Origin: a virus
Length of the DNA stretch: 59,721 nt
Virus record (IMG/VR): IMGVR_UViG_3300033153_014453
Location: 1 to 59,721 of that record
Direction: 5' to 3' (one strand)
The position numbers were made by a program, and so were the translations under genes. The notes under the pieces were generated by a model. The model was not told where the DNA came from, ran no database searches, and saw only the letters and a list, made by a program, of their open reading frames with translations. Position 1 is the stretch's first letter; every line of letters begins with the position of its first letter. Of the stretch, positions 1 through 59,721 are shown in pieces.

Positions 1-240
<240 letters not shown>

Positions 241-9169: not shown

Positions 9170-9613
9170 TTATCTTATTACCTCTTTACCATTCCTAAAC
9201 ACTTTAACAATTTCAACTGGCCTAACTGCATCTACTACATAAGTCCCAGTAAAACTTTGAAAATCTTTTATTGGGTATCTTATGTTGGAACATTGGCATG
9301 TAAGTAGTTTCTTTATATGATCAGTGTAGAATTGTTCAACCTTATCAACAGGGCCAATACTTATTGGTATGTAAATATTTCCTATTATTTCTACCATTAG
9401 AATTTTAGTTATCTTACTATCTGCTAAACTCCATAACTTAGCTGGTTGGATTGCTTGTTTTTCTGTAGCATAAATAAAAGTCCCAAGGGTATTTTTAGGA
9501 GCCCTAGTTATTTTGTTTAATAAGTATCTTTTTCTGTAGTTTTTTGGATAACATTTCTTATATAGAGAATAATGTCCTGCCGAAACTACTTTATAAGCTA
9601 TTTTACCTTTCAT
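9170..9613 (-). CDS. Paralogous family member 2, 147 aa
   Basis: Shares AYKVVSAGHYSL, YPKNYRKRYLLNKITRA, LGTFIY and a final VFRNGKE with the genes on either side. Starts three bases after the gap from member 3 and has AAGGAAGATAAAA as ribosome site. Function unknown. The three copies with different middles suggest diversification after tandem duplication. Confidence 0.75.
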   Translation of the reverse strand: MKGKIAYKVVSAGHYSLYKKCYPKNYRKRYLLNKITRAPKNTLGTFIYATEKQAIQPAKLWSLADSKITKILMVEIIGNIYIPISIGPVDKVEQFYTDHIKKLLTCQCSNIRYPIKDFQSFTGTYVVDAVRPVEIVKVFRNGKEVIR

Positions 9614-9616
9614 TTT

Positions 9617-10048
9617 TTATCTTCCTTTCTTTTTTGTTTCTTTTCCATTTTCAAATACATGTAAAACTTCAATAGGTTTAATCACATCTGCCAAGTGGGT
9701 ATCCAAGCGAGAAGAAAAATCATTAACCCAAAATCTTACATATTTGATTTTATATTTTTTGTAAAATTCTTCTAAATCATCAACAAACCCAACCCTAATT
9801 GGTATGTAAATATCACCAAGCACTTCTACTCTTAGGACTTTTGTTATTGTATTTTCGGTAGACGATCTTACTTTAGCTTTATGGATTGCTTCCTTTAATG
9901 TTTTATGGATAAAAATTCCCATACTATTTTTAGGTGCTTTTGTTATTTTATTTAATAAATACCTTTTTCTATACTTTTTAGGATAAGAACAATTGCGTAT
10001 TGAATAATGGCCCTTAGATACTACCTTATAAGCTATTTTTCTTTCCAT
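9617..10048 (-). CDS. Paralogous family member 3, 143 aa
   Basis: Shares AYKVVSKGHYSI, YPKKYRKRYLLNKITKA, MGIFIH and VFENGKE with members 1 and 2. Closest to member 2. Its start overlaps the end of the basic zinc-finger-like gene by 23 bases. Function unknown. Confidence 0.75.
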   Translation of the reverse strand: MERKIAYKVVSKGHYSIRNCSYPKKYRKRYLLNKITKAPKNSMGIFIHKTLKEAIHKAKVRSSTENTITKVLRVEVLGDIYIPIRVGFVDDLEEFYKKYKIKYVRFWVNDFSSRLDTHLADVIKPIEVLHVFENGKETKKKGR

Positions 10049-10715
10049 TTCTTATTTTCCTTTCTTCAAAAAGTAACTCACTAAGAACAAAATTTTCTCG
10101 ACTATTTAATGGCTTTGAGTTTTTATATCTATTTAATCTTCTTTTAAGAATAAAAATTCTTAACTTTCTAAAACCTTCTTCAAAAGATTTATTAGGTAAG
10201 AAAAAGTTTTTTTGTGTCCAACATTTATTACATTCAGGACATACTAAAATGCCACTTATTTCACTTAAAGGAATCTTTTCACTTCTAGGAAAGACATTTT
10301 TTATGTAAGGTTTCTTGTAAATATAACTTTCACATATTTGACATTTATTAGCATCTCTTAGTTTTATTAATGCTTCTATGGCCCATTTAGGTTTAGCTAG
10401 GGATCTAGACGTGAAAAGATAAATACTTACTCTTCTATCACAAGCGAATCTTCCGAAGGTTTTTAGCTTGTAGATAGAAGCAAATTCCAGAGAAGTTTTA
10501 TCTTTTTCTTTTTCATATTGGATTTTGTTATAAGCTGATTTGTTTTTGGTTGAGATTATGGAAGGTTTTAATGGTTTAGGTTTTTGCTTATTTTCATTTT
10601 TAGTAAGGTTTTTAGGTTTTTTTTCTTTTTCTTTTTCTTTTAAGACTTGTTTTATAGATTTTTTAGGTTTTAGCAAGTTTAGAAGATCGTCTTGGTTGTT
10701 ATTAGTTGTGTTCAT
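10026..10715 (-). CDS. Basic protein with CxxC pairs, possible degenerate HNH
   Basis: 229 residues. The N-terminal 70 are Lys-rich and disordered. Around residues 123-167 comes LRDANKCQICES, a stretch of about 30 residues and LVCPECNKCW. The layout (Arg-Asp, CxxC, hydrophobic middle, CxxC) recalls HNH endonucleases, but the central His pair is missing. It may be a zinc-binding DNA protein or an inactive nuclease. Confidence 0.6.
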   Translation of the reverse strand: MNTTNNNQDDLLNLLKPKKSIKQVLKEKEKEKKPKNLTKNENKQKPKPLKPSIISTKNKSAYNKIQYEKEKDKTSLEFASIYKLKTFGRFACDRRVSIYLFTSRSLAKPKWAIEALIKLRDANKCQICESYIYKKPYIKNVFPRSEKIPLSEISGILVCPECNKCWTQKNFFLPNKSFEEGFRKLRIFILKRRLNRYKNSKPLNSRENFVLSELLFEERKIRNGKKNSL

Positions 10716-14403: not shown

Positions 14404-14595
14404 TTAAAATGTCCAAACCCGGCCGATGGGATTGTGTGATACTGGGATGCAGTTAATCTGAGAAGTAATACGTTTGTTGTCGATTTTTTCAATCAAATCG
14501 TTTTCCCTTTGCTTGGAAGCAACATATTTACTCCCAGCAAAGTTCATTCTGATTGTTTTGAAGCTAGTTTTTGGTTTGCGCCCGAATGTTTTCAT
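14404..14595 (-). CDS. Small basic protein, 63 aa
   Basis: From ATG 14595 (AAAGGAGCAAAGAAA leader; the ATG at 14613 is inside this ribosome site) it reads MKTFGRKPKTSFKTIRMNFA. Basic, short, no motif. Function unknown. Confidence 0.6.
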   Translation of the reverse strand: MKTFGRKPKTSFKTIRMNFAGSKYVASKQRENDLIEKIDNKRITSQINCIPVSHNPIGRVWTF

Positions 14596-14614
14596 TTTCT
14601 TTGCTCCTTTCATT

Positions 14615-14938
14615 TTAAGGTTTTTCTGGTAGGATAAACAATTTTGGTTGTGCTCTAGTGTAACACGGTCCTAGTCCTACTATAGTTGCTGTCTCATTTG
14701 AGACAAAATCTTTACCTATGTTAACTATTTTGTTGTCCCTAATAAGCAAAAGGTATCCCCTGCTTAAATCGTCATATAATGTATATTCTTTGTACTTTTC
14801 TGTTTCCACCCACAAGTAGGGCCTTTTTTGCTTCTCCCACTCTTGGGGAGGCATTGAAATGGTGGTCCCTTCAAAAAAAAGATGCTCATGTTCTTTGCCG
14901 AAATGTTTTTCCAATTCTCTTATAATTTCGTTTTGCAT
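14615..14938 (-). CDS. Hypothetical protein, paralogue of 13646-13957
   Basis: 107 residues with the same HEHLFF, EWEKQKRPYLWV and YDDLSRGY landmarks as 13646-13957. The C-terminal third is unrelated. Function unknown. Confidence 0.7.
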   Translation of the reverse strand: MQNEIIRELEKHFGKEHEHLFFEGTTISMPPQEWEKQKRPYLWVETEKYKEYTLYDDLSRGYLLLIRDNKIVNIGKDFVSNETATIVGLGPCYTRAQPKLFILPEKP

Positions 14939-14955
14939 TTTTTACTCCTTTCTTT

Positions 14956-15228
14956 TTAAAGATTAATTGTATAATCCTCTGGAACCTTCGGCGATCTCGA
15001 TTCAATCGCCCGTTTGATCTCATTTATTCTTTCTTTCGCCCATGCTTCCGCTTCTTCAGAGGTTAAAAAAAATCCTGAATTTATGTAATACTTTTTATTA
15101 TGTTTCGTTAATTCGTTAATCCCATTTTTTCGCCAACCTAACCTTTTCAGCCAAACGGCTGTCTCATCAGTTGCAAGTTTACAATAAAGTTTTCTTCCGC
15201 ATGACCTAAATGTTACGTGAATTTTCAT
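14956..15228 (-). CDS. Hypothetical protein, paralogue of 14069-14377
   Basis: 90 residues. Shares the C-terminal helix (AEAWAKERINEIKRAI) and VPEDYTINL ending with 14069-14377. The N-terminus is a beta hairpin with CGRKLYCKL. Function unknown. Confidence 0.7.
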   Translation of the reverse strand: MKIHVTFRSCGRKLYCKLATDETAVWLKRLGWRKNGINELTKHNKKYYINSGFFLTSEEAEAWAKERINEIKRAIESRSPKVPEDYTINL

Positions 15229-26880: not shown

Positions 26881-27801
26881 ATGGCTCTTACCTATGATCA
26901 AATTGATGCTCATGTACGTAAAAAGTACATTCCTGTTCTTCAGGATGCTTTCTATTACTCTAATCCTCTTGTTAGTATTCTCACTGACAAATCCAAGGTA
27001 ACTTTCGATTCTGGTAAAACTATTGACATTCCTATCCTGTATGGAGAGGAAAATTCTGGATGGTATACTGGGCTTGATACCTTTAACATTGACACCAAAG
27101 AAGTTACCACTCTTGCTGAATTTGATTGGTATAACTTCTATGTCAATGTTACCCTCACTGGTGAAGATATGCTCAAGGTAGAAGGTGATGAAAAAATCAT
27201 CTCCCTTGTAGAAACCAGGATGGAGAATGCAAGCAAGACGGCTAACCGAAAACTCAATATGGCCATGTACACTTCTGGTGGGAGTAAAGCAATTAAAACT
27301 CTCACTGATGCTATAGGTATTTCTGGTACTTATGGTGGGATCTCTAAGGATGACTACTCCTGGTGGCAAGGAAATGTGAATGCCACTGGAGGAGCATTTA
27401 CTATGCAAATGCTCATGGATGTCTATGGAGATTGCTGTGACGGGCCTATTCAGCCGGATTTGATTATCACAACGCAGAATATTTATAATGAAATCTGGTC
27501 TCGTGTACAGCCTGCTCAGAGGGGAAATCTCGAAAATACACCTACTCTTGCTCGTATTGGTTATACCGGGATTTCTTTTAACAATGCTACTATTGTAGTA
27601 GACAAATATTGTCCCGCTGGGCATATTTTTGTTCTTAATACCGAATTCTGGAAACTTGTTGTACATAAGAAACGCAATATGTATTGGACCGAACCTAAGG
27701 TTCCCATCAACCAAGATGCTTATGTCCGGCAACTCTTGTGGCGAGGAGCACTTATTTGTGCTGCACCTAGATGGCAAGGGTATGTTGCTAATGTTTCTTA
27801 G
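26881..27801 (+). CDS. Major capsid protein (HK97 fold)
   Basis: 306 residues. Features of HK97-type capsid proteins: N-terminal helix, central spine helix (KIISLVETRMENASKTANRK) and a beta-rich P-domain. Next to scaffold, with an excellent AAGGAGG ribosome site. Uses CGT/CGC Arg and ATT/ATC Ile codons while its neighbours prefer AGA and ATA, as expected for the most highly expressed gene. Confidence 0.88.
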   Translation: MALTYDQIDAHVRKKYIPVLQDAFYYSNPLVSILTDKSKVTFDSGKTIDIPILYGEENSGWYTGLDTFNIDTKEVTTLAEFDWYNFYVNVTLTGEDMLKVEGDEKIISLVETRMENASKTANRKLNMAMYTSGGSKAIKTLTDAIGISGTYGGISKDDYSWWQGNVNATGGAFTMQMLMDVYGDCCDGPIQPDLIITTQNIYNEIWSRVQPAQRGNLENTPTLARIGYTGISFNNATIVVDKYCPAGHIFVLNTEFWKLVVHKKRNMYWTEPKVPINQDAYVRQLLWRGALICAAPRWQGYVANVS

Positions 27802-27934: not shown

Positions 27935-28687
27935 ATGGCTAATGAGTATTCCGAATATCAAACTACTCCTGGTTACATCATCAAACCCCAGCAGGGGATT
28001 TATGAAATTTCTGCTACTCAGAAAGCTACCCTTGGAACTCGTATTGAGTTCAACGATGGAAGAGTTTTCTACTATGCAAAAGCAGGAAGTTCTAATCTCT
28101 CAGCAGGAAAACTCGTAATGAGCGAAGGTGTGGCTCAGGTAAATAAAAGCGTAAGTGCTGCTGTTAGTGTAGGAGAGTATTCCGTAACTGTAGCTACTTC
28201 TAGTGCTATCACTACTGCCCAAGAGGGTTTCTTGCAGGTAAACGACTCTGATGGAGAAGGTTTGCAATATAAGATCAAAACTTGCGCAGCTAATAGTACT
28301 ACTTCTACCTATACTGATTTTACTCTTTATGATCCTGTTTCCAAGGCTCTTACTACTAACAGCCAGGTAACTGTTGTTTACAATCCTTTCAAGAATCTTG
28401 TTGTAACTGGAACTACCAAGATAGGCAAAGTAGTAGGCGTTCCTCCTGTAGATGTTACTGCTGATTACTACTTCTGGTGTCAAACCTGGGGATTGGCTAA
28501 TATTCTCTGTGATGGCACTCCTGCTGCTGATACTTTGGTAACTCTTGGTTCCGTTGCGGGTTCTTTTGGAGCTTTAGATGTAGCTACTGGTTCTGCTGGA
28601 GTAACTAATGTTCCTATTGGTAGAACTTATGGAACTGTAGGAGTAGATACTGAATACAAGCCTGTGTGGCTTTCTCTTATTAGGTAG
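27935..28687 (+). CDS. Head decoration-like protein, 250 aa
   Basis: Beta-rich, Val/Thr/Ser-rich protein just after the capsid gene, preceded by GAAAGGAGAC. Length and position suit a capsid decoration or stabilising protein. It shares the relaxed codon choice of the capsid gene. No family recognised. Confidence 0.65.
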   Translation: MANEYSEYQTTPGYIIKPQQGIYEISATQKATLGTRIEFNDGRVFYYAKAGSSNLSAGKLVMSEGVAQVNKSVSAAVSVGEYSVTVATSSAITTAQEGFLQVNDSDGEGLQYKIKTCAANSTTSTYTDFTLYDPVSKALTTNSQVTVVYNPFKNLVVTGTTKIGKVVGVPPVDVTADYYFWCQTWGLANILCDGTPAADTLVTLGSVAGSFGALDVATGSAGVTNVPIGRTYGTVGVDTEYKPVWLSLIR

Positions 28688-28697
28688 GAGGTTCTAA

Positions 28698-28952
28698 ATG
28701 GCTATTACAAGATCTACCAAATTCTTCACCTATAGTTCCAACAAAGTAATGGGCCTAGATCTCGTTACTCATGATGGGAGTTCTACTACTGTAAATCTCC
28801 CAGTAGGGACTATAGAAATGGCTTTTGTTCTCCAGCAAGTAGGGACTAATTCTACGGGTACTACTGTTTCATGGAGCGATTCTACTGTTACTTTCTCTGC
28901 TGCTGGAGCCGATGGTTCAACTGATTATGTTCTTTATGTAGGGACTGCATAG
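28698..28952 (+). CDS. Small beta-rich virion protein, 84 aa
   Basis: Short all-beta protein (ITRSTKFFTYSSNKVMGLDL at the start, GSTDYVLYVG near the end), separated by 10 bases from the previous gene with an AGGAGG site. Possibly a decoration trimer. Function inferred from context only. Confidence 0.6.
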   Translation: MAITRSTKFFTYSSNKVMGLDLVTHDGSSTTVNLPVGTIEMAFVLQQVGTNSTGTTVSWSDSTVTFSAAGADGSTDYVLYVGTA

Positions 28953-28996: not shown

Positions 28997-30601
28997 ATGC
29001 AATCGCTGGCATCATATAGCTTAATAGCACTAAGTGCAGTTTTTATCTTAGGCTGGTTAGTTTTTGAAACTTACCAAATACCAAGGAGGTTTTTTATAGC
29101 CGTTGGAAGTTTTTTGCTATTGCTATCTGGAGCGCTATTTGGTGCCAGCGATTTTTTAAATTTTCATCCCTTGATAGGATGGTTGTTAGTTAGTTATATT
29201 ATTTGGTGTTTTGTTAGTAATTTCATCTCATCCAGACCTGATATTGGAGTAAGTGGTTTAGCAAGTATTATAATTCCTGTTTTTGTTTGTTTGTTTTTTA
29301 GCCAAGAAAATATAACTCTTGGAATGCAGTTAGTAGTTCTTAGTTCTATTCCTAATTGTGTTTATGCTATTATTCAGAAAAACTTCAAATATGAACCATT
29401 AAAGTATAGCACTAACAAAACTCATTGGTATCCCATAGGATTTCTTGGTAATACTAACATGCTAGGTGTATGGCTAGTTCCTCAGTTTTTCCTAGCTATT
29501 TGGCTTTCAGAAAATATAAATTTGAATTATTTCTTTCTTAGCTTGCTTATTGTTTATGTTATTTACTTAACAAAATGTAGATCTGCTTTAGTAGGATTGA
29601 CAGTAGGTATTATCTACTTAGCAATCCAATCAAAAGTTTTATTCTCCATTGGAGCTTTGATGTTAGTTGTTATTCTTTGCATAGCTGCCTTGGAAGATAA
29701 AAACAGGATAAAAAATATTTTTAACTTCCTTACAGATAAAAAAACCTTAAAAGAAAGACTTAACTACTGGAAAATAGCTCTCCTTGGAATAAAGCTAAAT
29801 CCTATTTTTGGCTATGGAACAGGAGTTTTTAAAATTTTTATTCCTTACATCCAAAGAGAGTTGAATGATAAAACAAATGGTAAGTTTTTAAAAAAAGAAA
29901 ACTACGCATGTCCTTATCCACGATATGTGCATAATGATTTCTTACAAGAAGCTCTTAATCATGGAATCATAGGTCTTAGTTTATTTCTTGCTTTGAATGT
30001 TATTACTATAATCTTTTGCAAATCTTCTATTCTAAGTGCTTGTTTGATAAGTTTACTTACTACTGGTTTGTTTTTTCATGGATTTTCTATCATAGGAATA
30101 AACATCCTTTACTGGTTTGTGTTTTTTACTTGTAATGTTTTCTCTTTTCAAGTATGTGAGTTTTCTACTACTTGGATTTATTTAAGCATTCCTATTAGTT
30201 TTGCATTTTGTATTCTTAGCTTAAAAGAACTTCTTTCAAGTTACTACTTCCAACAATTCATGCTTAAATCCAAACCAGAAGGCTTAGTAAAAGCTCTTAA
30301 ACTATTTCCTTTCTCTGGCACGTTTAATACTTTTCTCTTAGTAACTGCAATGCAGAAGAATAAAATCTTACTCTCTCTAAAAGCCTGTATGAGAACTCTT
30401 GGTACTTATGACGGAGACCAACGCTTATGGGAGCTTTGGTATAATTTAGGATATGTTTTTCTTAGATCAAACAATCTTGACCTTGCAGAAGCATGTTATA
30501 AAGAATCTCTCTCCTTCTGGCCTGAGTATGAAGGCGCAAAGAACGGTTTAGAAATAATCTCCGCAATAAGAAACCGCATGATAAGTGAATCTCAGGGGTA
30601 A
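28997..30601 (+). CDS. O-antigen ligase/polymerase-like membrane protein with TPR tail
   Basis: 534 residues with about ten membrane segments and the Wzy_C/WaaL pattern: FLGNTNMLG (149-157), KCRSALVG (193-200), ERLNYWKIALLG (253-264), NPIFGYGTG (268-276) and HNDFLQEALNHGIIGL (312-327). After the last membrane segment comes a helical TPR-like region (LGYVFLRSNNLDLAEACYKE). These proteins join or polymerise lipid-linked polysaccharide in the periplasm of Gram-negative bacteria. Its place in the virion operon between head and tail genes suggests late-made surface alteration, but the substrate is unknown. Confidence 0.9.
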   Translation: MQSLASYSLIALSAVFILGWLVFETYQIPRRFFIAVGSFLLLLSGALFGASDFLNFHPLIGWLLVSYIIWCFVSNFISSRPDIGVSGLASIIIPVFVCLFFSQENITLGMQLVVLSSIPNCVYAIIQKNFKYEPLKYSTNKTHWYPIGFLGNTNMLGVWLVPQFFLAIWLSENINLNYFFLSLLIVYVIYLTKCRSALVGLTVGIIYLAIQSKVLFSIGALMLVVILCIAALEDKNRIKNIFNFLTDKKTLKERLNYWKIALLGIKLNPIFGYGTGVFKIFIPYIQRELNDKTNGKFLKKENYACPYPRYVHNDFLQEALNHGIIGLSLFLALNVITIIFCKSSILSACLISLLTTGLFFHGFSIIGINILYWFVFFTCNVFSFQVCEFSTTWIYLSIPISFAFCILSLKELLSSYYFQQFMLKSKPEGLVKALKLFPFSGTFNTFLLVTAMQKNKILLSLKACMRTLGTYDGDQRLWELWYNLGYVFLRSNNLDLAEACYKESLSFWPEYEGAKNGLEIISAIRNRMISESQG

Positions 30602-30605
30602 CTAA

Positions 30606-30995
30606 ATGTCTCGTCCTGGATTTTGGTTAGGAAAAATAATCTCAGATGAAAAGAAAGTAAGAAAATATCTCTCTTTTTACGTTCATCATAGAAACCTCTA
30701 CAACATGGGCGAAGGTGAGATTGCTTTTCTTAGACGCTTACCTGGATTTCAAACAAGCGCTATTGCTTGGTTGTTTATAAAAGAGCTCTTTCCTACTGCT
30801 TCTAATTGGTGGATGCTTGTTTTGCCTGTAGTTATAATAATAAAAGTCTTAGCTAACTGGTCGTTAGGTAAATGGCTTTATAAACAAAAATTTCCAGACG
30901 TTCAAAGCGATTGGCATAATCATGTAGATCCAGTTGCTAGAACGCTTAGTAAAAAACTCTTAAACAACGAGGGGATTACTTATGAGCGGTTATAG
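30606..30995 (+). CDS. Membrane protein, 129 aa
   Basis: Basic N-terminus, then a hydrophobic region (AIAWLFIKELF; WWMLVLPVVIIIKVLANW), then a cytoplasmic tail with His residues. Follows the O-antigen ligase-like gene by 4 bases, so they are probably co-translated partners. Function unknown. Confidence 0.65.
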   Translation: MSRPGFWLGKIISDEKKVRKYLSFYVHHRNLYNMGEGEIAFLRRLPGFQTSAIAWLFIKELFPTASNWWMLVLPVVIIIKVLANWSLGKWLYKQKFPDVQSDWHNHVDPVARTLSKKLLNNEGITYERL

Positions 30996-31371
30996 AGACA
31001 TTCACGTACATCAACTTTGGTTAGCAACAACCATTCCTGCTGGGACTACTGTTACTTCTAATGCAATTGATCTAGGAACTTATGGGCAGAATTATGATTT
31101 CTCTATCCAAGTAGCAATCTCTGGTGCAGGAACAAGTGTTTGTATGGGTTATTTGCTTTCTAATGATGGAATAAACTTTGTAAGATCTACCAATAGTAAT
31201 AACATAGTAGCAGGATCTACTGCTTTTCATGATAAGTGTGGAGTAAATAAAAATGGAAAAGATCTAGTTAGATTTACTCCTGTACCTTTAGCTAGATTTA
31301 TGAAAATCGAAGCCTGGGAATCATTAGGAGCAAGTGATGCTACACTGACTGCTTATCTTGCTACTCAATAA
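30982..31371 (+). CDS. Small virion-like protein, 129 aa
   Basis: Beta-rich, Thr/Ser/Gly-rich; opens MSGYRDIHVHQLWL. Overlaps the membrane protein gene by 14 bases. A jelly-roll or fibre-connector type is plausible. It may decorate the head or fibre base. No family recognised. Confidence 0.6.
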   Translation: MSGYRDIHVHQLWLATTIPAGTTVTSNAIDLGTYGQNYDFSIQVAISGAGTSVCMGYLLSNDGINFVRSTNSNNIVAGSTAFHDKCGVNKNGKDLVRFTPVPLARFMKIEAWESLGASDATLTAYLATQ

Positions 31372-31381
31372 GAGGTTCATA

Positions 31382-32422
31382 ATGAAAAAAATAATCTGGC
31401 TAGTTAGTTTTTTTCTTATCTTTTTCTTAGCAACTAGTTCTCACGCTAGAAGAGCAGTGCTTCCACAAGATTTAGTATCAGATAACAAAATCTCAGGTGG
31501 AAAAACAGTAAGTATTTCTTCTGATGGTAAGAAGTTTAGCTTTACTACTCCTACTAGTGCAAATGTAGATCAAGATGCTGATTACACTTGGAGTGGATTT
31601 AATACCTTCAACGGAACTGTTTATATAGACGTTTCTGCTACTAGTCCATTTGTTATAAGAACTGGTGGTGGTACTATATTTCAGATTGATAATAACGGAG
31701 CTTATACTGCTTATCCTAGTGATAATTATCATGTTGCTACTAAGAAATATGTTGATGATCATGCTGGAGGGTTAAATACTGATAATGACTATACCTGGAG
31801 CGGTGCTCAGACTTTTAATGGAACGGTCTACATAGATGTTTCATCCGCCAGTCCTTTCGTAATAAGAGCCAGCGGAAATACAATGTTCCAAAGCGATGAC
31901 TCCGGAACTACTGTATACGACAAAAACGGAGACTGGGTTTATTCTACAATAAGTGGAATCCAGGGCTTATCTACTGCCAGCGGCTTTGATGAAATGGAAG
32001 CCGAAAAAGGTATTTTTGGAATCAACACTACTGAAATAAGCTCTGATACTACGCTTACACTTGATCAGACCAGGGGTATTAGATTTTTAGTCACCTCAAC
32101 TTCCACGGTAACAGGTCCTCCGCTTAGTTGTTCGCCTATTTCTGGTAACACGGTTCCTCCTATGAGATTTCATCTTGTAGGTAATTCTGGCCTTACGCTT
32201 TTTGCTAATAGTTCTACTATTCCTATTTATTACTCAGCAGGAACAGATTTCAAATCCGCTGATGCTGTTTGGATAAACCCAGGTAGTTATGGAACCGTTT
32301 TAGGAATGGATACTGTAGTAACTGGATCTACGGCTTATTATGTGGTTTATTACATATCTTTCCCGTTTGATGGAACAAGAAAAAGCGGTTGTACACTTTA
32401 TGCAGTGGGAGATGGGAGCTAA
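31382..32422 (+). CDS. Secreted fibre-like protein with internal repeat
   Basis: ATG at 31382 (AAGAGG site) begins MKKIIWLVSFFLIFFLATSSHA, a clear Sec signal peptide ending at a small-X-small cleavage site. The body has two repeats of DYTWSG-TFNGTVYIDVS-SPFVIR and a HVATKKYVDDH motif common in phage tail fibres. A signal peptide on a fibre-type protein is odd: it may be an exported surface protein, not a virion part. The second repeat has more GC-rich codons than the first. Confidence 0.75.
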   Translation: MKKIIWLVSFFLIFFLATSSHARRAVLPQDLVSDNKISGGKTVSISSDGKKFSFTTPTSANVDQDADYTWSGFNTFNGTVYIDVSATSPFVIRTGGGTIFQIDNNGAYTAYPSDNYHVATKKYVDDHAGGLNTDNDYTWSGAQTFNGTVYIDVSSASPFVIRASGNTMFQSDDSGTTVYDKNGDWVYSTISGIQGLSTASGFDEMEAEKGIFGINTTEISSDTTLTLDQTRGIRFLVTSTSTVTGPPLSCSPISGNTVPPMRFHLVGNSGLTLFANSSTIPIYYSAGTDFKSADAVWINPGSYGTVLGMDTVVTGSTAYYVVYYISFPFDGTRKSGCTLYAVGDGS

Positions 32423-32977: not shown

Positions 32978-33799
32978 ATGTTTAAATTCATTAGAAATCC
33001 TAATCCTCACAAAAAACCTCCCTATGGTAGCAGGATTGATCCTACACATCCACTGGCTCAAGGATTAGTGGGGTGTTGGTTGATGAATGAAGGTGGTGGG
33101 AGTAAGATTTTTGATTTAATGTTAGGCATAGGAGGAGTTGCTGGATCAGGATCTCCCTCTCCTAGTTGGGACAGCAAAGGTATTTATTTTCCTGGGGTTA
33201 ATTCTTCATGTTTCTATTATACTTCTCATCCGATTCAGGATATAGTCAACCAATGCTCTGTTGTCTTTTGTTTCAGGACCATTGATACGAGTTATGCTAA
33301 GAATGGAAGAATCATTTCGACAAAAGATAGTTGGAGTTCTGCAAGTGGTTTTGAAGTCTCATACAACCCTGATACAAACAAACTCGAAGTGATTGGAAGT
33401 GGCTCGTCAGCTCACAGTATTTATGAGGCTGCTCTGAATGATGGTCTTTGTCATAATATTGAGATTATTTTTGATGGTACAAGTGATAAAGTATTCATAG
33501 ATGGCATAGAAAATTCCACTGGTTCAATAGATACACTTACTGTATCCACTGAGGATCTTGGTATAGGAGATAGAGGCCCTAGTGCTAATTCAATAGAGCC
33601 ATTTAAAGGAATACTTCATTATTTGTATGTTTTTCGGAGGGCTTTGGCTGAATCAGAAATCGCTCATCTCTCCGCCGAACCCTACTCCTTCATTCTCGTT
33701 CCCCAATACTGGTACATGGTAGATTTTGGAGTTGTTTCTTCACCACCCGGACCACCTGATCCTGGACCTACCGGGTTTCAAGGATTAAGGATATTTTGA
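32978..33799 (+). CDS. LamG/concanavalin A-like lectin domain protein
   Basis: 273 residues. The pattern HPLAQGLVGCWLMNEGGG (25-42), a central IEIIFDGTSDKVFIDGIEN and LHYLYVFRRALAESEIAHL is the LamG jelly-roll sandwich widely seen in phage receptor-binding and decoration proteins. The C-terminal SPPGPPDPGPTGF stretch is a collagen-like linker, perhaps for fibre trimerisation. Probably contacts host glycans. Confidence 0.85.
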   Translation: MFKFIRNPNPHKKPPYGSRIDPTHPLAQGLVGCWLMNEGGGSKIFDLMLGIGGVAGSGSPSPSWDSKGIYFPGVNSSCFYYTSHPIQDIVNQCSVVFCFRTIDTSYAKNGRIISTKDSWSSASGFEVSYNPDTNKLEVIGSGSSAHSIYEAALNDGLCHNIEIIFDGTSDKVFIDGIENSTGSIDTLTVSTEDLGIGDRGPSANSIEPFKGILHYLYVFRRALAESEIAHLSAEPYSFILVPQYWYMVDFGVVSSPPGPPDPGPTGFQGLRIF

Positions 33800-34188
33800 T
33801 GAATAAACGGGTACAGATTTTAAGTATTACTTTTATTGTATTTTTCATTATGTCATCGCCAGTTCTAAGCAGCCCATTCTTAGTTTGTGATCCGCAAAGC
33901 GGTGTTACAAGTTATATTGTTTATATTGATGATTACAACACAGAAGTTCCTGCACGAATACTTTCAGATGGAAAAGGGCAGCTTTATTTTGACCTTGAAC
34001 CTTTAAATCTTTCAAACGGATGGCATAGAGCAAGAGTAGCAGCTAAAAATAATTATGGAACTAGCAACTTTGTAATATTTGATTTTAAATGGCCACGTGT
34101 TAGCAATGGGAAATTAAGAATAAGGATAGATAATAATAAATCTTTCCCGAAAATAAGTATTAACGGAAATGGAAGATTTAGAAAATAA
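33799..34188 (+). CDS. Secreted small protein with beta-sandwich domain
   Basis: 129 residues from ATG at 33799, which overlaps the preceding TGA. N-terminal Sec signal (ILSITFIVFFIMSSPVLSS), then a fibronectin-like beta domain (GVTSYIVYIDDYNTEVPAR). Another exported protein in the tail block. Might act in the periplasm near lysis genes that follow. Function unknown. Confidence 0.7.
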   Translation: MNKRVQILSITFIVFFIMSSPVLSSPFLVCDPQSGVTSYIVYIDDYNTEVPARILSDGKGQLYFDLEPLNLSNGWHRARVAAKNNYGTSNFVIFDFKWPRVSNGKLRIRIDNNKSFPKISINGNGRFRK

Positions 34189-35116: not shown

Positions 35117-35668
35117 ATGGATGAGAAGTTAAAATTATATAATCTTAGCAAGCCTTATATTAATACCGGAGATTGTATTATTTGGAGATCTTATTCTACT
35201 ATAGGAAGTTTAATTAGGTTTTTCTCTAAAGCAGATGTAAATCATGCTTCTTTAGTTATAAAACCAAAAGAATATGTAGGGTTAGTAGATAGGAGATTTC
35301 TACTAGAAGCTCTTGAATTCGGAGTAGTTCCTAGATTGCTTTCTGAAAGGTTGAAAAATTTTAAAGGAAAAGTGTGGTGGTTGCCTTTAAAGAAGAAATA
35401 CGAAGATAAAAGAAATTCAATAGCTGAATGGGCTATTCAAGAAATAGCTAAAGGAAAAGGTTATGATTATAAAAGCCTTTTCAAGCAAATCTTAGGAAGA
35501 GTCTCAATAGAAACTGGAAAATATTTTTGTTCAGAATTCGTGCATGCTTCTTTAGTTTTTGGTGCTAGTATTGCGCTACCTATGAAAGCAGCTAGACCTG
35601 GAGATTTAGAAAATTTAGGAGTTTATGAAAAAAGAATTCTTATTTATGATAACATAGGAGAAAGCTAA
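35117..35668 (+). CDS. YiiX-like permuted NlpC/P60 hydrolase
   Basis: 183 residues with the permuted papain-like layout: VNHASLVI (His43), ALEFGV (Glu64 or 67) and KYFCSEFVHASL (Cys138, Ser139). Such proteins are thiol hydrolases of peptide or acyl bonds. Overlap-free and directly after the M23 gene, so probably a second wall-active enzyme. N-terminal GDCII is typical of the family. Confidence 0.85.
   Translation: MDEKLKLYNLSKPYINTGDCIIWRSYSTIGSLIRFFSKADVNHASLVIKPKEYVGLVDRRFLLEALEFGVVPRLLSERLKNFKGKVWWLPLKKKYEDKRNSIAEWAIQEIAKGKGYDYKSLFKQILGRVSIETGKYFCSEFVHASLVFGASIALPMKAARPGDLENLGVYEKRILIYDNIGES

Positions 35669-59602: not shown

Positions 59603-59721
<119 letters not shown>

Follow-up and report, generated by a model that had tools for sequence, protein, structure and literature searches.

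A putative Wzy_C/WaaL-type glycosyltransferase with a TPR tail among the capsid and tail genes of an integrase-less phage lineage

The window, that is, the whole stretch of 59,721 nucleotides analysed here, carries a late block (positions 17723-48082) with its genes on the plus strand, where genes for terminase, portal and major capsid protein (MCP) lead into the region that concerns us (Table 1). There, after the MCP gene and two genes for proteins of 250 and 84 aa, lies a gene for a polytopic membrane protein of the Wzy_C/WaaL type, its ATG preceded at 9 nt by the ribosome-binding site GGAG. It is followed after 4 bp by a gene for a small membrane protein, which itself overlaps the next gene by 14 bp, and then by fibre-like genes, all in the same orientation. 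A first-pass annotation of this DNA had placed the Wzy_C gene between decoration and fibre genes. The position is correct, whereas 'decoration' is a positional label: the 84-aa protein has no Pfam match, and the 250-aa protein has neither a Pfam nor a PHROG match. The gene had also been described as cotranscribed with the small membrane protein. This is probable from the spacing, which fits; promoter-like sites in the record do not exceed the number expected from shuffled sequence, and terminator-like sites (8 against 4.3 expected) give a weak signal, the nearest ones being located inside open reading frames. An exact 114-bp direct terminal repeat (window positions 1-114 and 59608-59721) suggests that the record is a whole genome assembled as a circle, and the missing integrase, already remarked upon in the first-pass annotation, is therefore informative: neither PF00589 nor PF00239 was found in this record, nor in three of the relatives considered below (G022, G030 and G027). 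No tRNA was found in this phage. Its cultured relatives are distant, with a best terminase match at about 31% and a best MCP match at 31%.

Table 1. Genes, domains and active-site codons around the Wzy_C gene (window positions)
Feature	Position	Strand	Basis or remark
Major capsid protein, SU10-type	26881..27801	+	phrog_9953
250-aa late protein after MCP	27935..28687	+	kept clade-wide; decoration-type by position only
84-aa late protein	28698..28952	+	left border of insertion slot
Wzy_C/WaaL-type polytopic membrane glycosyltransferase gene with C-terminal TPR domain	28997..30601	+	ATG, 534 aa
Wzy_C domain, residues 181-331	29537..29989	+	Pfam PF04932
Codon of R195 (E. coli WaaL R215, D3 Wzy-beta R204)	29579..29581	+	alignment
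Codon of R254 (D3 Wzy-beta R270)	29756..29758	+	alignment; invariant in 8 phage homologues
Codon of H312 (E. coli WaaL H338, D3 Wzy-beta H300)	29930..29932	+	alignment; invariant in 8 phage homologues
C-terminal TPR-like domain, residues 427-533	30275..30595	+	Pfam, profile, model
129-aa membrane protein, partner gene	30606..30995	+	homologue 4 bp downstream of Wzy_C homologue in G075
129-aa late protein	30982..31371	+	right slot border in all seven slot-resolved phages
Fibre-like protein	31382..32422	+	predicted Sec signal peptide (MKKIIWLVSFFLIFFLATSSHA/RR)
Small protein	33799..34188	+	predicted Sec signal peptide

The product of 28997-30601 is a real Wzy_C membrane protein (PF04932, E 1.1e-18, 67.8 bits against a cut-off of 31.7) with a C-terminal TPR domain, so that the complete Wzy_C/WaaL pattern with a TPR tail, as first described, is borne out. 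The TPR_1 match covers residues 479-511 (E 5e-6), a profile of three homologues, compared with solved TPR proteins, widened the match to residues of about 424-525, and the AlphaFold2 model displays TPR-like helix pairs over the whole domain. Hydropathy shows 12 peaks and a single 87-residue loop (235-321) containing H312; with the fold match, this corresponds to the approximately 12 transmembrane helices and the large soluble His-bearing loop of the superfamily. A usable AlphaFold2 model was obtained only with eight phage homologues as input (pLDDT 77.1, pTM 0.75), three sequences giving a pLDDT of 46.6. When this model was compared with the PDB using Foldseek, the sole match below E 1e-3 was the WaaL O-antigen ligase 7tpg (E 1.1e-4, TM-score 0.59 on the target), lower-ranked matches being mostly TPR proteins; a viral fold library returned TPR-driven or weak matches only. 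The protein has no significant match in PHROGs, and a tblastn search of 50,697 phage records gave no match at the protein level, which leaves no tested close homologue. A tblastn search of plasmids and single-protein scans of viral and genome contigs likewise found none.

Members of the superfamily share arginines that bind diphosphate and a histidine that activates the acceptor. In E. coli WaaL, R215, R288 and H338 are named as important (PMC3643930), and in D3 Wzy-beta, with D3 numbering, R254, R270, R272 and H300 are essential (PMC4815439). The alignment supplies this set in the window protein with R195, R254 and H312. Absence of the Arg and His residues from homologues had been named at the outset as an observation that would count against the proposal; R254 and H312 are unchanged in 8/8 phage homologues. 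The alignment with WaaL and D3 Wzy-beta placed no arginine of the window protein on WaaL R288. We think, by our own reading of the motifs and not as the result of a tool, that R254-L-N-Y-W may answer R288-L-A-M-Y of WaaL. Conservation extends to the tail: 60 positions do not vary between the same-clade orthologues, four in all, and these take in much of the TPR motif DG.Q..WE.W..LG.

These orthologues came from a survey of related phages for the same position. A terminase scan led to L024, a 15-kb contig (terminase 51%) with a gene order that matches the window and a full-length Wzy_C homologue in the same position (31%, E 3e-68); searches with profiles of Wzy_C, portal and MCP brought in G022 (IMGVR_UViG_3300033149_002333, 67 kb), G030 (35.5 kb), G026, G027, G028 and G029. 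In four uncultivated phages (the window, L024, G022 and G030) a full-length gene thus lies between the 84-aa gene and the 129-aa gene of the 30982-31371 type, and each of the four products matches PF04932 and carries both Wzy_C and TPR_1. The slots of L024 and G030 hold one further gene, for a protein of 261 or 323 aa. In L039 (G026), L040 (G027) and L041 (G028) the slot is empty, with the border genes 113-139 bp apart and no Wzy_C found on these contigs; L042 stops before the slot, which is resolved in seven phages. Because three close relatives do without it, the Wzy_C gene is not essential to this virion type. G027, one of the phages lacking Wzy_C, has two copies of the 250-aa gene and three of the 84-aa gene (L040 10988-13275).

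The three phages without Wzy_C form one group, with 97% support, in a tree built from four core proteins; for the four carriers, the Wzy tree and this core-gene tree have the same shape. The GC contents of gene and contig in the four carriers (0.32/0.34, 0.36/0.40, 0.51/0.51 and 0.47/0.46) roughly track each other. For Wzy_C, pairwise identity ranges over 29-33%, compared with 35-45% in the scaffold, 39-48% in the 250-aa protein and 60-75% in the MCP, and on this ground we take the gene for an old, fast-evolving resident of the lineage and not a recent insertion. Inheritance, as read from the trees, is vertical within the clade, with one horizontal move. The same comparison disposes of an artefact, which the first-pass annotation had itself considered. 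Slot and flanking genes are repeated in independent metagenome assemblies, and this synteny rules out an assembly chimera; pattern scans of 84,980 bacterial and archaeal species genomes found no close match to the gene, and the chance that it is chimeric or contaminating host sequence is practically negligible.

The horizontal move concerns a phage of another lineage. G075 (61 kb), which has no match to the window MCP profile or to the phrog_2 terminase, encodes a 590-aa Wzy_C homologue (30%, E 1e-84) and, 4 bp later, a homologue of the small membrane protein (30%, E 5e-16), the one other phage where the latter recurs. The Wzy tree nests the G075 homologue beside that of G022 (93% support), which indicates that the two-gene unit has moved between phages. 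In G075 this unit lies 2.6 kb from an integrase, and among the phages searched for one, this homologue-bearing phage alone has the integrase expected of a lysogenic-conversion cassette on a temperate phage. Nested as it is inside the Wzy tree, the unit could be taken to mean that the gene served lysogenic conversion in a temperate ancestor and is now a passenger in the lineage. A passenger would be expected to decay, whereas this gene retains its full length and its site in each of four divergent phages, and its tree follows the core tree, and we hold this origin to be very unlikely. A Peptidase_C92 (YiiX-like) gene is also common to the window (35117-35668) and to the otherwise unrelated G075 (L100 13935-14558).

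Phage polymerases of the Wzy_C family have been studied as temperate-phage cargo that converts the serotype of the lysogen. The first-pass annotation had set the present gene against such cargo. The integrase is indeed absent here; the contrast is blurred because integrase-bearing G075 carries the same two-gene unit, and lytic phages with O-antigen-modifying genes, named gnarl, have already been reported (PMC12373910). Further lineages place Wzy_C near late genes. In G064 (MCP 28%), a shorter Wzy_C protein, lacking the TPR, is encoded two genes after the MCP gene (25.1 bits, under the cut-off). In G076 (51 kb), Wzy_C with TPR has a GP7-type MCP block on one side and, on the other, a gene resembling one for a tail tubular protein (our own reading, with no Pfam match), a GT2-like gene being nearby. 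The gene is thus downstream of a capsid gene in two further lineages, and in G077 it is found upstream of putative terminase and portal genes. Among records drawn by MCP similarity, 2/49 carry Wzy_C, and the trait is therefore uncommon overall but recurrent near late genes.

The neighbour at 30606-30995 is indeed a small membrane protein, with one predicted transmembrane helix in 129 aa, and is conserved in G075. It is missing from the three same-clade orthologous loci (L024, G022 and G030), which rules out a small partner always required by Wzy_C. It may assist the Wzy_C enzyme, or it could inhibit the enzyme of the host, in the way that the small Iap, encoded next to Wzy-beta, does in D3. 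The Wzy_C protein itself might be an interfering or competing subunit that disturbs the host's Wzy/WaaL/chain-length complex or depletes the lipid carrier, the envelope being weakened or the glycan shortened with no new polymer made. Late expression, as judged by position, and the small membrane partner would agree with this, and there are precedents in D3 Iap and the gnarl proteins, by which phages block or divert the O-antigen synthesis of their hosts (PMC12373910). A decoy would not need the active-site Arg and His residues, which are kept across about 30% identity, and we find such interference rather unlikely.

A surface-glycan role for the lineage is further supported by a sugar-biosynthesis block in G022 (L034 2287-15132, reverse strand), located between the DNA polymerase gene and shared downstream genes, so that both of its flanks are phage genes common to the window. 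The block comprises two asparagine-synthase-type genes, a DegT sugar aminotransferase, a radical SAM protein, a group-1 glycosyltransferase, three hexapeptide acetyltransferases, a Gfo/Idh/MocA oxidoreductase and a WbuX-type N-acetyl sugar amidotransferase, whose TIGR03573 match (E 4e-48) falls short of the cut-off. Among the genes examined in the window's phage, there is no comparable block.

We favour an enzyme because of the PF04932 match, the 7tpg fold, the Arg and His residues, the conserved slot, the GC content, the G075 unit and the G022 cassette. Specifically, we propose a late-expressed, inverting Wzy/WaaL-type enzyme that would alter a host glycan and so limit re-adsorption, with a probability of about 0.55. 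Family, fold, active-site residues, slot and lineage inheritance are directly supported here; activity, substrate, timing and the adsorption benefit we infer. Late action is suggested by the operon position: transcribed with the capsid and tail genes, the gene would act late. The enzyme, a GT-C protein of the inner membrane, would take a glycan linked to undecaprenyl diphosphate at the periplasmic face, R195 and R254 presumably holding the diphosphate and H312 activating the acceptor. The glycan would be passed by inversion to another glycan, making the protein a beta-type O-antigen or capsule polymerase, or a ligase. As for the TPR tail, docking of a partner or control of chain length is its probable role. 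With the surface polysaccharide changed just before lysis, virions may avoid the debris of their own host, and infected cells may escape re-infection. To be sure, some observations count against this explanation: neither E. coli WaaL nor D3 Wzy-beta has anything corresponding to the TPR tail, three close relatives lack Wzy_C, and three same-clade loci lack the partner.

As far as the sequence goes, it fits a ligase, a polymerase and a protein O-glycosyltransferase alike and does not separate the three. The last of these would be a PglL-like O-oligosaccharyltransferase with an exported protein as acceptor, possibly one of the phage's own signal-peptide-bearing fibre-like proteins encoded downstream. 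PglL genes frequently adjoin their targets (PMC3643930), PglL enzymes have PF04932 and the common Arg and His residues, and late proteins with a predicted signal peptide are encoded downstream of Wzy_C in all four clade carriers. No late-strand signal peptide was found in G026 (all) or in G027 (late region nearly whole), both without Wzy_C. The phages are few, the signal-peptide rule is home-made, and the correlation is not clean, L041 having one signal peptide but no Wzy_C. The PglL_A signature PF15864 was undetected at E<=1 in the four orthologues, which excludes membership in the PglL family proper; of its motif H-x3-E-x-P (H400, E404 and P406 in N. meningitidis PglL), the window protein retains only the histidine (H361, followed by I365 and G367). 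A PglL-like activity is a doubtful alternative, and it is quite unlikely that the lineage encodes a periplasmic oligosaccharyltransferase glycosylating its own late exported, signal-peptide-bearing fibre-like proteins.

The glycan-modifying enzyme that we prefer has several known counterparts. D3 Wzy-beta is also a phage-borne Wzy_C protein with aligned active-site residues and a small protein gene (iap) nearby. However, D3 is temperate, its wzy-beta runs in the opposite direction, close to genes for an integrase and an acetylase and outside the capsid operon, and the protein, with 19% identity to that of the window, has no TPR tail. D3 Wzy-beta, like the Wzy_C polymerase of epsilon15, acts on beta-linked O-antigens and converts serotype, and presence of Wzy_C accompanies a beta linkage in most tabulated cases (PMC4815439). 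WaaL (CAZy GT121; E. coli waaL, C. metallidurans 7tpg) resembles the window protein in fold and in the residues answering R195 and H312, whereas the latter is 18% identical to E. coli WaaL, has a TPR domain and is encoded outside an LPS core locus. The Variovorax phage VarioGold has a putative O-antigen ligase, VG_p25, which is likewise a Wzy_C membrane protein encoded beside small membrane protein genes, but the phage is temperate, the gene runs opposite to the late genes, and the 411-aa product has no TPR described (PMC9658991). The gnarl genes of coliphages, found in lytic phages too, alter the O-antigen, and their authors discuss progeny benefit and superinfection exclusion; in contrast to the present protein, their products, of 40-90 aa, are not glycosyltransferases and are believed to target host enzymes (PMC12373910). 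Residence in the virion operon of an integrase-less lineage, the TPR tail and recurrence near late genes of unrelated phages set the present family apart from known phage Wzy_C enzymes. An intact Wzy_C member has apparently stayed with capsid and tail genes over a long divergence. Late-gene residence and recurrence in unrelated phages point to surface-glycan remodelling as a part of the lytic programme itself, and these phages probably re-coat the cell late in infection. The TPR-tailed proteins would form a glycosyltransferase class missed by virus annotation, as the PHROGs and tblastn searches illustrate.

Several other features of these phages deserve mention. MCP genes are interrupted by LAGLIDADG-like open reading frames (L043 3019-4533; L024, reverse complement, 9243-10052), with a group I intron identified by Rfam at L043 4294-4533. 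Predicted Sec signal peptides occur on late-operon proteins, some of them fibre-like (L043 10386-18283, G030 reverse complement; L024 reverse complement, 14584-15137), and on a late protein like a capsid decoration protein (L077 8416-8880). In G027 (C1:58951-60639, L104), the terminase match crosses two in-frame TAG codons, representing an insertion, a frameshift or stop recoding. Finally, the late operon of G022 has a gene of the MotA/TolQ/ExbB proton-channel family (L025 14837-15280, PF01618, E 2e-8), followed by a MotB/ExbD-looking gene with no Pfam match (L025 15234-15896).
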